Origin: Azospirillum canadense
GTDB lineage: Bacteria; Pseudomonadota; Alphaproteobacteria; Azospirillales; Azospirillaceae
Assembly: GCF_025961225.1 (NCBI RefSeq)
Contig: NZ_JAOQNG010000001.1
Span: forward strand, 1,724,501-1,788,500
DNA: 64,000 bases
Direction: 5' to 3'
Positions 5,111 through 56,778 of this stretch are shown here, in pieces. Below the pieces are notes generated by a model. That model saw nothing but the letters and a program-made list of their open reading frames with translations. It ran no database searches and was not told where the DNA came from. Each line of letters opens with the position of its first letter. Position 1 is the first letter of the stretch. The position numbers and the translations under genes are program-made.

Positions 5111-5524
5111 ATGACGGACGCCAAAGCGTTCGACGACGTGATCGCCGCCATCGCCTTCAACGCCGACGGGCTGGTGCCCGCCATCGCGCAGGCCGAGGGA
5201 ACGGGCGAGGTGCTGATGATGGCATGGATGAACCGCGACGCGGTTCTGGAAACGCTGGAAACCGGCCGTGTCTGCTATTGGTCGCGCTCGCGCGGAGGGC
5301 TTTGGCGGAAGGGCGAGACGTCCGGCCAAGTGCAGCGCCTGAAAGATTTCCGGATCGACTGCGACGGTGACACGCTTCTGCTGATCGTGGAGCAGGACGG
5401 CGTCGCTTGCCACACCGGCCGGCGAAGCTGCTTCTTCCGCTCCGTGCGGGGCGAGACGCTGGAAACCAACCAGGAGGTCCAGACCGATCCGTCCGTCCTC
5501 TACGGCCACAGCCACAAGCATTGA
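5111..5524 (+). CDS. hisI: Phosphoribosyl-AMP cyclohydrolase
   Basis: The 137-residue single-domain enzyme catalyses the third step of histidine synthesis, opening the purine ring of PR-AMP. All family landmarks are present: the SRSRGGLWRKGETSG segment (57-72), the metal-binding D-C-D-G-D cluster (83-87), and the zinc cysteines C100 and C107 in GVACHTGRRSC. There is no fused HisE domain, as usual in alphaproteobacteria. It lies 36 bp after metC with a GAGGAA ribosome site, so the two may be cotranscribed. The first small-RNA promoter begins 29 bp after its stop. Confidence 0.95.
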   Translation: MTDAKAFDDVIAAIAFNADGLVPAIAQAEGTGEVLMMAWMNRDAVLETLETGRVCYWSRSRGGLWRKGETSGQVQRLKDFRIDCDGDTLLLIVEQDGVACHTGRRSCFFRSVRGETLETNQEVQTDPSVLYGHSHKH

Positions 5525-5553
5525 ACGGGTTTCGCTGCAATGCCGAAGAACCT

Positions 5554-5602
5554 TTGATCTATGTCAAGGTTCCAGGTGGGATGGGTGAGGTACAACCCTC
5601 TT
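5554..5602 (+). promoter_or_regulatory. FNR/FixK-type promoter of sRNA unit 1
   Basis: The box TTGATCTATGTCAA (5554-5567) matches the FNR consensus TTGAT-N4-ATCAA with one mismatch. A -10-like TACAAC (5591-5596) ends 6 nt before the G that starts the conserved RNA element at 5603. The box centre is 42.5 nt from that G, which is class II activator geometry. Confidence 0.75.
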
Positions 5603-5666
5603 GTCTCTAACCCTCCCTGTATTCGACTATGCCGGTGGTTCCCATGGAACCTCCGGCTATTTTTTT
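5603..5666 (+). ncRNA. Small RNA unit 1 of a three-copy tandem array
   Basis: A predicted RNA of about 64 nt begins GUCUCUAACCCUCCCUGUAU, has a short single-stranded linker and ends in an intrinsic terminator. The first 20 nt are identical to unit 2, and the first 14 nt are shared with unit 3, while hairpins and linkers differ. There is no convincing reading frame. The 5' element GUCUCUAACCCUCC is complementary to purine-rich ribosome-binding sites (GGAGGGUUAGAGAC), suggesting a trans-acting riboregulator. Boundaries are inferred from promoter spacing and the terminator. I do not recognise a named RNA family. Confidence 0.75.
5631..5666 (+). terminator. Intrinsic terminator of sRNA unit 1
   Basis: The stem GCCGGTGGTTCC / GGAACCTCCGGC (5631-5642 and 5646-5657) has one T-T mismatch and a CAT loop. 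TA and seven T residues follow. Confidence 0.9.
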
Positions 5667-5716
5667 GTGTGCGAACGGGCTTCGCCGCGCAGTGAAATTT
5701 CAAAAATTAGCGGGTT

Positions 5717-5764
5717 TTGATATAGATCAACGAACCGGATATGCCAATCGGCTAGATAGGGGTT
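5717..5764 (+). promoter_or_regulatory. FNR/FixK-type promoter of sRNA unit 2
   Basis: TTGATATAGATCAA (5717-5730) is a perfect FNR consensus. The -10-like TAGATA is at 5753-5758, and the conserved G at 5765 is exactly 41.5 nt from the box centre. Spacer sequence differs from units 1 and 3 while geometry is kept. Confidence 0.85.
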
Positions 5765-5822
5765 GTCTCTAACCCTCCCTGTATTCACTTAACCGGAGAT
5801 TCCTTGGAATCTCCGGTTTTTT
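5765..5822 (+). ncRNA. Small RNA unit 2 of a three-copy tandem array
   Basis: A predicted RNA of about 58 nt begins GUCUCUAACCCUCCCUGUAU, identical to unit 1 over these 20 nt. It then runs UCACUUA into its own terminator hairpin. It lies 162 bp after unit 1. Its promoter has a perfect FNR box, so expression is expected at low oxygen. Apart from promoter motifs, the 5' element and the terminator fold, the DNA between units shows no obvious similarity, which argues for selection on exactly these parts. The gene has no open reading frame of note. Confidence 0.8.
5792..5822 (+). terminator. Intrinsic terminator of sRNA unit 2
   Basis: A perfect 12-bp stem ACCGGAGATTCC / GGAATCTCCGGT with a TT loop is followed by six T residues. 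Confidence 0.92.
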
Positions 5823-5870
5823 CTTGCCTGTGCCCGGGTTGACTGGCGCGGTGCGCTTTCACGACCATGG

Positions 5871-5919
5871 TTGATTTGGATCAAGGCCGGGGGGCTGATG
5901 AAAGGCCTAAAACACTCAG
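5871..5919 (+). promoter_or_regulatory. FNR/FixK-type promoter of sRNA unit 3
   Basis: TTGATTTGGATCAA (5871-5884) is a perfect FNR consensus. A -10-like TAAAAC lies at 5908-5913. The conserved G at 5920 is 42.5 nt from the box centre, as in unit 1. Confidence 0.82.
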
Positions 5920-5979
5920 GTCTCTAACCCTCCTTTTTTTATTCTTGGAGGCTTCGGCAACGAAGCCTCCAATTTTTTT
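5920..5979 (+). ncRNA. Small RNA unit 3 of a three-copy tandem array
   Basis: A predicted RNA of about 60 nt begins GUCUCUAACCCUCC, then a U-rich linker, AUUC and a terminator. It is the most divergent copy: the conserved core is retained for 14 nt and the AUUC block recurs before the hairpin. It starts 155 bp after unit 2 and ends 16 bp before the stop codon of the convergent DUF6460 gene. The internal run of eight U residues after CCUCC has no hairpin before it and is not expected to terminate transcription by itself. Confidence 0.75.
5945..5979 (+). terminator. Intrinsic terminator of sRNA unit 3
   Basis: A perfect 12-bp stem TTGGAGGCTTCG / CGAAGCCTCCAA with a GCAA tetraloop is followed by seven T residues. 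Confidence 0.92.
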
Positions 5980-5994
5980 ACCCTGGGTATCGGC

Positions 5995-6267
5995 TCAGAG
6001 GCGGTGCCGGCTGCGCGACCACCGCAACACGACACCGAGGAGGGACAGCGGCACGACGATCACCGCGCCGATCAGGATGTAGGGCACGGCCCAGCGGAAG
6101 GCGTCCAGAAGGGAGACCAGCGCGTCGCGCGACAGCGAGGCGATGTCCCGGATCGTCACCCATGTGTTGGTCAGGATGTTCGCTGGCGTGATGTCCAGGA
6201 AGGACAGCACGAGGCCGACCACGAAGCAGAGCAGCAACGTTCTGACGATCCAACCGAACAAGGCCAT
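5995..6267 (-). CDS. Small membrane protein, DUF6460-like
   Basis: The 90-residue protein has two strongly hydrophobic segments (about 4-24 and 58-80) and a basic C-terminal tail (RWSRSRHRL). The pattern LFGWIVRTLLLCFVVGLVLS, then DITPANI and IGAVIVVPLSL, resembles DUF6460 proteins of alphaproteobacteria, which have no assigned function. The ATG at 6267 follows GGAGGA very closely, with only one nucleotide between, so a TTG four codons upstream could be the true start. It is convergent with sRNA unit 3. Homology call is from memory of the family pattern. Confidence 0.7.
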   Translation of the reverse strand: MALFGWIVRTLLLCFVVGLVLSFLDITPANILTNTWVTIRDIASLSRDALVSLLDAFRWAVPYILIGAVIVVPLSLLGVVLRWSRSRHRL

Positions 6268-6765
6268 TCCTCCAACCAAGCGCGCCGCCTCTCCCGACGC
6301 GGAGGCGGGTACCCGCTCGTTAAACGCAGGTGCCCAGCGGCTGTTCCGGATTCGGACCACCGGAAGCTGGGCGGTAACATGGACATCATCAGCGCTTCCG
6401 CAAGGGAAGCGGACGCACCGACGCTCCGCAAAAGTTGTTTGTCGTCGGCCCTTTCGGATTATCCCCAGAATCTGTGGATAACTTTGTGGACGAGCGTGAA
6501 AGTATGGCACCTCCGCCGAGAGTTGCCCTCTCTGCCACCAATTTGGGCAATGCTGCACACGCTCAGTGGCCCTGCAATTCCGCCTGTTTTGTCAACGCGC
6601 TGACCACGGACAGGGTGTCGCGCGGAAAATACGCCCACCCTACCCCGCATGGGGATAACTGTGTTGCCAACTGCGGAATCACGAACGCGCCCAAGGGCAA
6701 TCGCCCCTGAGCGCAGTGAATTTTCCATGTCGACTTTTTCAACCAGCGCGCGTTGCGCACCGGGA
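6268..6765. other. 500-bp intergenic region with inverted DnaA-box-like sites
   Basis: No convincing gene is seen. TTATCCCCA (6459-6467) and TGTGGATAA (6473-6481) form an inverted pair 5 bp apart; the second is a perfect DnaA box on the minus strand. A third site, TGGGGATAA, lies at 6650-6658. No AT-rich unwinding stretch stands next to them, so an origin is not supported. The part next to 6267 must hold the promoter of the DUF6460 gene. Confidence 0.45.
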
Positions 6766-15427: not shown

Positions 15428-15468
15428 GCCTTGCCCGGCGGTCACCAACTTGTCATAGTCGCGGTCCT

Positions 15469-15560
15469 TCACTGGGGGGAGCCGATGGTCGGCTGAGAGG
15501 TCCCGAAACGGGACGACCCCTGGAACCTGATCCGGATCATGCCGGCGAAGGGATCAGTGA
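15469..15560 (+). promoter_or_regulatory. TPP riboswitch (THI element)
   Basis: The classic aptamer core is present: GGCTGAGAGGT, then GACCCCTGGAACCTGATCC, then GGATCATGCCGGCGAAGGGA, closed by P1 TCACTG (15469-15474) with CAGTGA (15555-15560). The ATG of thiZ begins 4 nt after P1 and the only Shine-Dalgarno-like AAGGGA (15548-15553) lies inside the aptamer. Ligand binding should hide it, so control is probably translational. No terminator hairpin with T-run separates it from the gene. Confidence 0.96.
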
Positions 15561-15564
15561 GCCG

Positions 15565-16344
15565 ATGAACGCGCCCGAACTCCCGAACGCCGTCCGCCCA
15601 AATGCCCTTGCGCCTGCCCCGCTGTCGGTGACGGTGACCGGCGCACGGCTGACCTATGGCGGGACGGAGCTGTTCGCCGATCTTTCCCTGACTGTCGAGG
15701 CGGGGGTCACCACCGGACTCCTGGGGCCGAGCGGAGTCGGCAAGACCACGCTGCTGCGCATGGTCGCCGGCCTCGCCGATCCGGAGCCGCCGACGGTCAT
15801 CGAGGCGCGCGACGGCGCCCCGCTGCACGGCCGCGTCGCCTACATGGCGCAGCAGGACCTGCTGCTTCCCTGGCTGACGGTGCTCGACAACGTCCTGCTC
15901 GGCGCGCGGCTGCGGCATGAGCGGCGGTCGCCCGACCTTGTCGCCCGCGCCCGCGCGCTGCTGGAACAAGTCGGGCTCGCGGGACGAGAAACGGACCGGC
16001 CCGCGACGTTGTCCGGTGGGCAGCGGCAGCGCGTCGCCATCGCGCGCACGCTGATGGAGGACAAGCCGTTGGTCCTGATGGACGAGCCCTTCTCCGCGCT
16101 CGACGCGCTGACCCGCCTGCGCCTCCAGGACGTGGCGGCGTCGGCGCTGGCCGGGCGCACGGTGCTGATGATCACCCACGACCCGCTGGAGGCGCTGCGG
16201 CTCGGCCACCGCATCCACGTGATGACCGGCCGGCCGGCCACGGTCGGACCGGCGCTGGAACCTCCCGGCCGGATACCCCGTGCCGTGGACGATCCGGCGC
16301 TTCTGGCCTTGCAGGCGGAGTTGCTGCGGAGGCTGGCGGGATGA
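15565..16344 (+). CDS. thiZ: Thiamine-precursor (HMP) ABC transporter ATP-binding protein
   Basis: The 259-residue ATPase has Walker A (LGPSGVGKTTLLRM), Q-loop (YMAQQDLLLPWLTV), signature TLSGGQRQRVAIARTL, Walker B (PLVLMDEPFSALDAL) and H-loop (VLMITHDPLEAL). The sequence alone says nitrate/taurine/HMP-type importer; the TPP riboswitch directly upstream makes a thiamine-precursor role, as in the ThiXYZ system, the best reading. The ATG at 15565 lies 4 nt after the aptamer. It overlaps thiX by 4 bp. Confidence 0.88.
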   Translation: MNAPELPNAVRPNALAPAPLSVTVTGARLTYGGTELFADLSLTVEAGVTTGLLGPSGVGKTTLLRMVAGLADPEPPTVIEARDGAPLHGRVAYMAQQDLLLPWLTVLDNVLLGARLRHERRSPDLVARARALLEQVGLAGRETDRPATLSGGQRQRVAIARTLMEDKPLVLMDEPFSALDALTRLRLQDVAASALAGRTVLMITHDPLEALRLGHRIHVMTGRPATVGPALEPPGRIPRAVDDPALLALQAELLRRLAG

Positions 16345-56673: not shown

Positions 56674-56778
56674 CCCCACCCCAACCCTCCCCCGCTGGGC
56701 GGGGGAGGGAACTGCCGCCGGACTTTAGCTAAGGTCCTGTCTCCCTCCCCCGCCCAGCGGGGGAGGGTCGGGGTGGGG
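56674..56778. repeat. Compound REP-like palindrome (inverted pair of GC-rich units)
   Basis: Two 37-bp arms (56674-56710 and 56742-56778) are imperfect reverse complements. Each arm contains its own palindrome CCCTCCCCCGC-TGGG-CGGGGGAGGG. The core CCCTCCCCC/GGGGGAGGG recurs in a simpler form at 60533-60554. It lies 24 bp beyond the IS target site. It is probably a dispersed repeat of the genome; transcription termination toward der is possible. Confidence 0.75.

Follow-up and report, generated by a model that had tools for sequence, protein, structure and literature searches.

A conserved and apparently undescribed family of putative sibling small RNAs with FNR/FixK-type boxes in Azospirillum and other alphaproteobacteria

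Introduction

FNR and FixK, the usual regulators at boxes of the consensus TTGAT-N4-ATCAA in alphaproteobacteria, both respond to low oxygen. An FNR-controlled small RNA (sRNA) has reportedly been found in Neisseria, and the PrrF1/2 sRNAs of Pseudomonas are said to be encoded by duplicated genes. FnrS of the Enterobacteriaceae is described as an FNR-dependent sRNA that represses genes dispensable without oxygen, and PcrZ of Rhodobacter sphaeroides as a low-oxygen-induced sRNA that depends on PrrA and FnrL, with FnrL control that may be indirect (accessible sections of PMC8139620). The Neisseria siblings NgncR_162/163 block ribosome-binding sites via a single-stranded region (PMC9973317, accessible sections). 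The alphaproteobacterial siblings alphaR8, MmgR and SisA-D have an unpaired CCUCCCU core and a terminator; in alphaR8, a weak 5′ hairpin precedes the 10-mer UUUCCUCCCU. A single alphaR8 copy is reported for most species, and the upstream regions of the four Caulobacter copies show no common motif, as far as the accessible sections of PMC12559287 go.

We analysed a 64-kb stretch of Azospirillum DNA, called the window below, that carries a triplet of cassettes, each with an FNR-type box and a predicted sRNA gene. Like alphaR8, the triplet consists of sibling sRNAs that have a terminator and leave a CCUCCCU core unpaired. It differs in lacking the hairpin and the 10-mer, and in the FNR-type box that precedes each copy at a nearly constant distance. 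Its predicted promoter geometry is of the FNR type at each cassette, as would be expected of an FnrS-like sRNA; unlike FnrS, such cassettes form arrays of two to four, each with its own box and a 5′-terminal anti-Shine-Dalgarno (anti-SD) element, and the triplet had no Rfam match to the FnrS family, at or below threshold. PcrZ is likewise an alphaproteobacterial low-oxygen sRNA, and its sequence comparison with the triplet consisted of the Rfam scans. Duplication of the sRNA gene is what the triplet has in common with NgncR_162/163 and PrrF1/2, whose regulators and sequences differ from those of the triplet. We know of no FNR box per copy in those tandem siblings.

No described tandem triplet with such a 5′ element was known to the initial annotation of this DNA, and the family still appears to be undescribed: no Rfam family matched the triplet region at the gathering threshold, and no description of the family was found in the full-text literature searched, which covers few subscription papers and bioRxiv preprints. 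The best E value among 13 sub-threshold Rfam matches was that of SorX (17.9 bits, cut-off 46.6, E 0.084); most of the others were snoRNA, miRNA or other unrelated families. Written out as letters, the exact 5′ sequence turns up in two papers, both on other topics. The main text of an sRNA survey of A. brasilense Sp245, in its accessible part, contains neither hisI nor the 5′ sequence, and its supplements may give these RNAs a number (PMC7685610). Oxygen-controlled, Hfq-type sibling sRNAs are a kind that is already known. What appears to be new, judging from the letters, is a class II box for each copy, tandem arrays of two to four copies, and a nearly invariant bipartite anti-SD 5′ end.

Anatomy of the three cassettes

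The cassettes lie head to tail between hisI and a convergent DUF6460 gene, neighbours that were confirmed by PF01502 and PF20061 matches. The features are as follows.

5111..5524, + strand: hisI, upstream neighbour outside the cassettes (PRA-CH, PF01502, E 2.6e-35)
5554..5567, + strand: FNR/FixK-type box of cassette 1, TTGATCTATGTCAA, centre at −42.5, 9/10 specified positions
5591..5596, + strand: −10-like hexamer TACAAC of cassette 1, at −12 to −7
5603..5666, + strand: predicted sRNA 1, about 64 nt, first base G5603 (covariance model R1, 75.3 bits)
5603..5621, + strand: conserved single-stranded 5′ element GUCUCUAACCCUCCCUGUA of sRNA 1 (anti-SD)
5631..5666, + strand: terminator 1, interrupted stem and T-run (from the fold, and from covariation in the family)
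5717..5730, + strand: FNR/FixK-type box of cassette 2, TTGATATAGATCAA, centre at −41.5, 10/10 specified positions
5753..5758, + strand: −10-like hexamer TAGATA of cassette 2, at −12 to −7
5765..5825, + strand: predicted sRNA 2, about 58-61 nt, first base G5765 (R1, 77.9 bits)
5791..5822, + strand: terminator 2, 12-bp stem (5791-5818) and T-run
5871..5884, + strand: FNR/FixK-type box of cassette 3, TTGATTTGGATCAA, centre at −42.5, 10/10 specified positions
5908..5913, + strand: −10-like hexamer TAAAAC of cassette 3, at −12 to −7
5920..5979, + strand: predicted sRNA 3, about 60 nt, first base G5920 (R1, 56.4 bits)
5945..5979, + strand: terminator 3, 12-bp stem (5945-5972) and T-run
5995..6264 (stretch scanned, start approximate), − strand: DUF6460 gene, convergent neighbour outside the cassettes (PF20061, E 5e-7)

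The repeated parts agreed with the initial annotation in most respects. Copy spacing, given there as 155-162 bp, measured 162 and 155 bp; one box has a mismatch and two are perfect; a −10-like hexamer, resembling TANAAN, stands at −12 to −7 in each copy; and the distances from box centre to the conserved G, the predicted first base, were again 42.5, 41.5 and 42.5 nt, leaving spacers of 35, 34 and 35 nt. With the start sites so predicted, the boxes lie near −41.5, as in class II FNR/FixK promoters. The claim of a 12-bp-stem terminator with a T-run in every copy held for copies 2 and 3, where the stem is perfect, but not for copy 1, whose stem of 5+6 bp is interrupted by a 1×1 mismatch and was missed by a simple terminator scan.

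The 5′ end GUCUCUAACCCUCC is common to all three cassettes; in sRNA 3 it is followed by a U-rich linker and then by the terminator. The shared 5′ element claimed earlier is seen as the 13-mer TCTCTAACCCTCC, which has three exact occurrences in the window. A 14-mer, GTCTCTAACCCTCC, was found within one mismatch at three places in the whole 9.7-Mb genome, all of them cassettes, against one place for the reversed control. FNR-type sites within one mismatch numbered four in the window, a count that none of 100 dinucleotide shuffles reached (mean 0.43). Elsewhere the copies have diverged, as had been stated: the 117-nt cassettes are 48-58% identical in pairs, even with the shared parts counted in.

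All three predicted RNAs fold better than shuffled sequences (z = −3.96, −4.67 and −7.06), and the 5′ third of each is unpaired in the minimum-energy folds. A scan for sigma-70-like promoters at 5300-6300 found none; this says little, because shuffles yield only 0.2. A coding reading of the cassettes, judged by eye, was rejected; the 5′ end of the RNAs is itself anti-SD. Elsewhere in the window, a TPP riboswitch lies at 15465-15571 (Rfam, 76.4 bits). The observation at the hisI locus is more than chance, and the sequence supports the prediction of three FNR-controlled sibling RNAs of about 60 nt there.

Conservation in the genus, the order and the class

The exact 13-mer was present in 33 of 61 relatives, all 33 being among the 37 of the same genus. 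A box with at least 8/10 specified positions started 49-51 nt upstream of the 13-mer in 57 of 58 matches (loci L004-L033); the sole exception, L013, is the start region of a gene with no cassette. The search fixes all 13 letters, so the invariance of the 5′ element among these matches is by construction. In other Azospirillum genomes, copy 1 has the same box as cassette 1 or nearly so.

Absence from relatives had been named beforehand as a refutation of the initial annotation. Instead, the covariance model R1, built from 48 sequences, had a match in 60 of the 82 genomes searched in the order. These comprise 44 of 45 in the genus and 16 of 37 outside it, and 11 of 13 genera are represented; the order-wide and family-wide searches covered these same 82 genomes. 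A cassette with its box was seen in 10 of the 13 genera. Two of the 16 genomes outside the genus are doubtful, G061 having no box at the right place and G071 matching in the terminator half only. R1 had no match in 22 of the 82 genomes (G027, an Azospirillum; 7/7 of g34; 9/11 of g35; and five others), and therefore the cassette is not essential there. Among 20 loci of other genera or divergent Azospirillum, 19 have a correctly placed box; their 24 cassettes, for which a C-rich block was also required, keep GTCTC in 23 cases while the joint behind it changes.

For named genomes, we scanned 84,980 genomes with the pattern box, N33-38, GTCTC, N2-6, CCTCCCT, and obtained 85 cassettes in 58 stretches. 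Spacer lengths were narrowly distributed (34 nt in 33 cassettes, 35 in 34, 36 in 17 and 38 in one), so that 84 of 85 fell within 34-36 nt. A TA begins at −12 or −13 in 83 of the 85 and is missing from the other two. TAAC joins GTCTC to the C-rich block in 65 of the 85; the invariance of the two blocks themselves is by construction, as both were fixed in the pattern. A terminator test was passed by 84, and the remaining one (L156) is cut by the end of its locus; the test is loose, since 56 of 1000 random stretches of the same loci also pass. L177, the cassette with the 38-nt spacer, barely passes and may be a chance match.

Hosts include Azospirillum brasilense, A. lipoferum, A. oryzae, A. halopraeferens, Skermanella aerolata, S. 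stibiiresistens, Oleisolibacter albus, Aerophototrophica crusticola, several alphaproteobacterial metagenome-assembled genomes (MAGs) and a record titled Roseomonas genomospecies 6. Mis-binning is suspected for a MAG titled Anaerolineae, because its cassette hardly differs from one in an alphaproteobacterial MAG (L143, L173).

Across 385 genomes of the class, R1 gave weak matches in 33 genomes outside the order (E 1e-3 to 2.6e-6). Reading covered those with a locus, 27 in all (L094-L120). The box stands at the same distance in L096, L099 and L102, and L104 (G370) was also shown to be a member after re-centring. The other 23 have no box at the right place; some of them are a different CCUCCCUGU RNA with a 5′ hairpin. 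Another alphaproteobacterial sRNA-like element was seen in L098, L112, L114 and L116, with the hairpin ACGUCUCCCAGACGU or a close form, a GAAGCCUCCCUGUUUAAACU-like stretch and a terminator; it has no FNR box and no Rfam match at the gathering threshold.

By a second route, the pattern TTGAY-N4-RTCAA-N33-37-GTCTC was found at 41 places in 36 of the 385 genomes, against 6 for the reversed control. The places read were those of 29 loci, G370 (the genome of L269), G167 and three places within those loci. Most have no terminator and were taken as chance. This pattern, which does not ask for a C-rich part, again recovers C-rich blocks and stem-loops outside the order. The two routes together gave seven of 380 genomes outside the order, in three families (G326, G228 and G405; G447, G370 and G167; G176). 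Each of these seven has a box of 8-10/10 and GTCTC, together with CCTCC or CCTTCC and a stem-loop whose tail is rich in T; in the three families the cassette occurs as a single copy. The joint varies among them in length and letters, which suggests that GUCUC and CCUCCC are conserved as two separate blocks.

Of the 9 pairs of the terminator stem in the 48-sequence alignment, 8 show changes on both sides. Cells were paired in 95.0% of cases against 82.9% in shuffles, and sliding the partners breaks the pairing. Stem covariation alone is no proof of a trans-acting RNA, because a bare terminator would covary too. From the whole of this evidence we regard the cassettes as a real, conserved and apparently undescribed family of putative sibling sRNAs with FNR/FixK boxes.

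History of the arrays

We compared 12 arrays, picked from those in hand, with 31 cassettes. The nearest match of each copy 1 or 2 is an equally ranked copy from another genome, and the same holds for copies 3 of the three-copy arrays; in L180, which has four copies, copies 3 and 4 do not follow the rank order. Paralogs within one genome are 44-65% identical over the 117-nt cassette, the 5′ element included. The copies are therefore old, individually kept genes and not a fresh tandem duplication. Arrays have two copies in the A. brasilense group, three in others and four in A. halopraeferens.

In A. lipoferum (L179), one copy is at hisI and two are about 8 kb off on the other strand, beside a hisC-like gene, as if the array had been split by an inversion or a move; several other genomes have the same two-site layout. 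The outward-pointing copies bracket a segment (L179, 3364-11360) with hisI, an ABC-permease gene and the hisC-like gene, which recombination between the inverted copies could conceivably flip. A plasmid search with the hisI region gave no match.

Proposed mechanism and candidate regulators

We think it likely that the cassettes are independent genes for sibling sRNAs of about 60 nt, activated at low oxygen by FNR or FixK, whose anti-SD 5′ end masks ribosome-binding sites. Their features include those of Hfq-type sibling sRNAs, namely several copies, a shared unpaired seed and U-tailed terminators. We infer transcription, oxygen control, Hfq binding and the target mechanism from anatomy, conservation, the constraint on spacing, terminator covariation, and the presence of suitable regulators and of Hfq in the genome. 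At low oxygen, a dimer of FNR or FixK would bind the box at about −41.5/−42.5, in class II geometry, and recruit RNA polymerase to a promoter without a good −35 element, with the start at the conserved G. Each RNA would then begin with an unpaired stretch of GUCUC, 2-6 nt and CCUCCCU (or a close form), followed by a short linker; the U-tailed terminator behind it could be held by Hfq. With its CCUCCC block paired to the Shine-Dalgarno (SD) sequence and its GUCUC block to bases beside the start codon, the RNA would lower translation of chosen mRNAs at low oxygen. Tandem copies would raise the dose, and differing linkers and stems may diversify behaviour.

The genome has an hfq gene and an FNR-type protein (L218) with CAGCAARSKGLC (CxxCx7C), later Cys residues and an ETLSR helix. 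Its best solved-structure matches are FixK2 and FNR, and in NCBIfam it matches FixK, FnrL and Fnr, each time below the curated cut-off. Alternatively, a FixK-type protein or another member of the Crp family could read the box in response to a non-oxygen signal, in which case the RNAs would be real but not oxygen-controlled. We hold this to be unlikely. The genome has 35 HTH_Crp_2 matches at E ≤ 0.001, which include two FixK-like proteins without the cluster (L214 and L215) that have an E-x-x-S-R helix; L214 has an NCBIfam FixK match below cut-off, and L215 was assigned by reading only. Against this, the box is the FNR/FixK consensus, and the genome encodes the Cys-bearing protein of the FNR type. 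Either FNR or a FixK paralog may act at the box.

Candidate targets and the dispersed repeat

In 45 genomes of the genus, the pattern GGAGGGTTAG-N0-8-ATG was found at 25 places, against 14 for the reversed control, so there is no broad target enrichment; several of these places belong to the sRNA genes or to a dispersed repeat. Four are one orthologous gene for a periplasmic ABC binding protein (PF13458) in four species, for which the nearest NCBIfam models, branched-chain amino acid and urea, are below cut-off. In these species, the gene has GGAGGGTTAGAGATG, with GGAGGGTTAGAG directly before ATG and 13-nt exact complementarity. In A. ramasamyi, which has the 13-nt match, the gene is plasmid-borne; in the A. 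brasilense leader the match is broken. The predicted duplex with the sRNA 5′ end has −28.5 kcal/mol. Only two of the 431 heuristic start regions compared reach this value, and each is antisense to the sRNA.

Orthologs of this gene numbered 21 in the 45 genomes. That of a fifth species reaches −23.3 kcal/mol. The other 16, this genome's included, have GGAGGGAGAG and read GGAGGGAGAGATG, in a bulged pairing of −19.8 to −20.5 kcal/mol, which 26 to 32 of the 431 background starts also reach. The pairing in this genome (−19.8 kcal/mol) is reached by 32 of the 431 starts and by 19 of the 94 with a strong SD. The PF13458 gene is a lead in one clade and no result for this genome. A phosphonate-type binding protein (one genome) and a carbonic anhydrase (three) have complementarity of 10-13 nt, and aapJ, beside hisI, pairs weakly (−14.3 to −16.8 kcal/mol in the five loci found). 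A target search with mismatches in this genome was swamped by the dispersed repeat.

That repeat leads to another explanation of the 5′ end, namely that the same RNAs, under the same oxygen-controlled promoters, serve mainly as sponge partners for G-rich RNA (other sRNAs or the dispersed GGGAGGGUUAGGG hairpin repeat) and not for ribosome-binding sites. This genome has 149 places within 2 mismatches of GGGAGGGTTAGAGA, three of them the sRNA genes, against 23 for the reversed control. One kind of repeat end was seen in 27 of 28 loci read (L288-L315, with L297, an sRNA copy, set aside), and this end could form a 14-nt duplex, one G-U included, with the 5′ end of the sRNAs. There is a precedent in Caulobacter, where CrfA pairs through a G/A-rich loop with the UUUCCUCCCU core of the alphaR8 sRNAs (PMC12559287, accessible sections), and 16 alphaR8-like matches exist in the present genome. 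However, the repeat was counted in this genome, whereas the sRNA 5′ end is conserved in further genera too, and the match may be chance, because the repeat is GC-rich and low in complexity. We judge a mainly sponge-type role to be quite improbable. The GC-rich hairpin repeat ends in GGGAGGGTTAGGGAGGGG or a close form, and the window has it at 56709-56743 (two arms); L309 is without the repeat end.

Relation to alphaR8

The triplet could also consist of diverged members of alphaR8 (mmgR/suhB, RF00519) that lost the 5′ hairpin; the CCUCCCU core, a linker ending near ACU, and the terminator are in common. RF00519 finds 16 places in this genome, 12 of them above the Rfam cut-off (the best eight are L034-L041), but the triplet is not among them and scores 12.3 bits at best against a cut-off of 41. 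R1, in turn, finds just the three copies in the genome at E ≤ 0.001. In place of the 10-mer core, the triplet has AACCCUCCCU (AACCCUCCUU in copy 3), and no stable hairpin lies 5′ of it. Membership in alphaR8 was therefore rejected, and descent from it appears very doubtful.

We give almost no credence to elements without sRNA function (terminators or attenuator remnants between hisI and its neighbour, or small DNA elements): the units do sit downstream of hisI, but every terminator has its own promoter-like set at narrowly kept spacing, such sets also occur at other places (the second site by the hisC-like gene) and in other families, and the stems covary while the 5′ element hardly changes.

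Implications

Low-oxygen sRNAs that mask ribosome-binding sites remain our preferred reading. A wider proposal would make the three genes founding members of an alphaproteobacterial family of oxygen-controlled sibling sRNAs, in which a bipartite 5′ end (GUCUC and CCUCCCU with a 2-6-nt joint) reads SD and start-codon bases, mRNAs of ABC-transporter binding proteins are core targets, and dispersed G-rich hairpin repeats are natural sponges. This is speculative, and we would not expect it to hold as a whole.

Members of Azospirillum are microaerophilic nitrogen fixers used as crop inoculants. The cassettes add an apparently unlisted sRNA family to this genus and would connect its FNR/FixK oxygen switch with post-transcriptional regulation. 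As old paralogs, positionally orthologous between genomes, that share a nearly invariant seed and have promoters of their own, they lend themselves to a clean natural test of the reasons for which bacteria maintain several sibling sRNAs.
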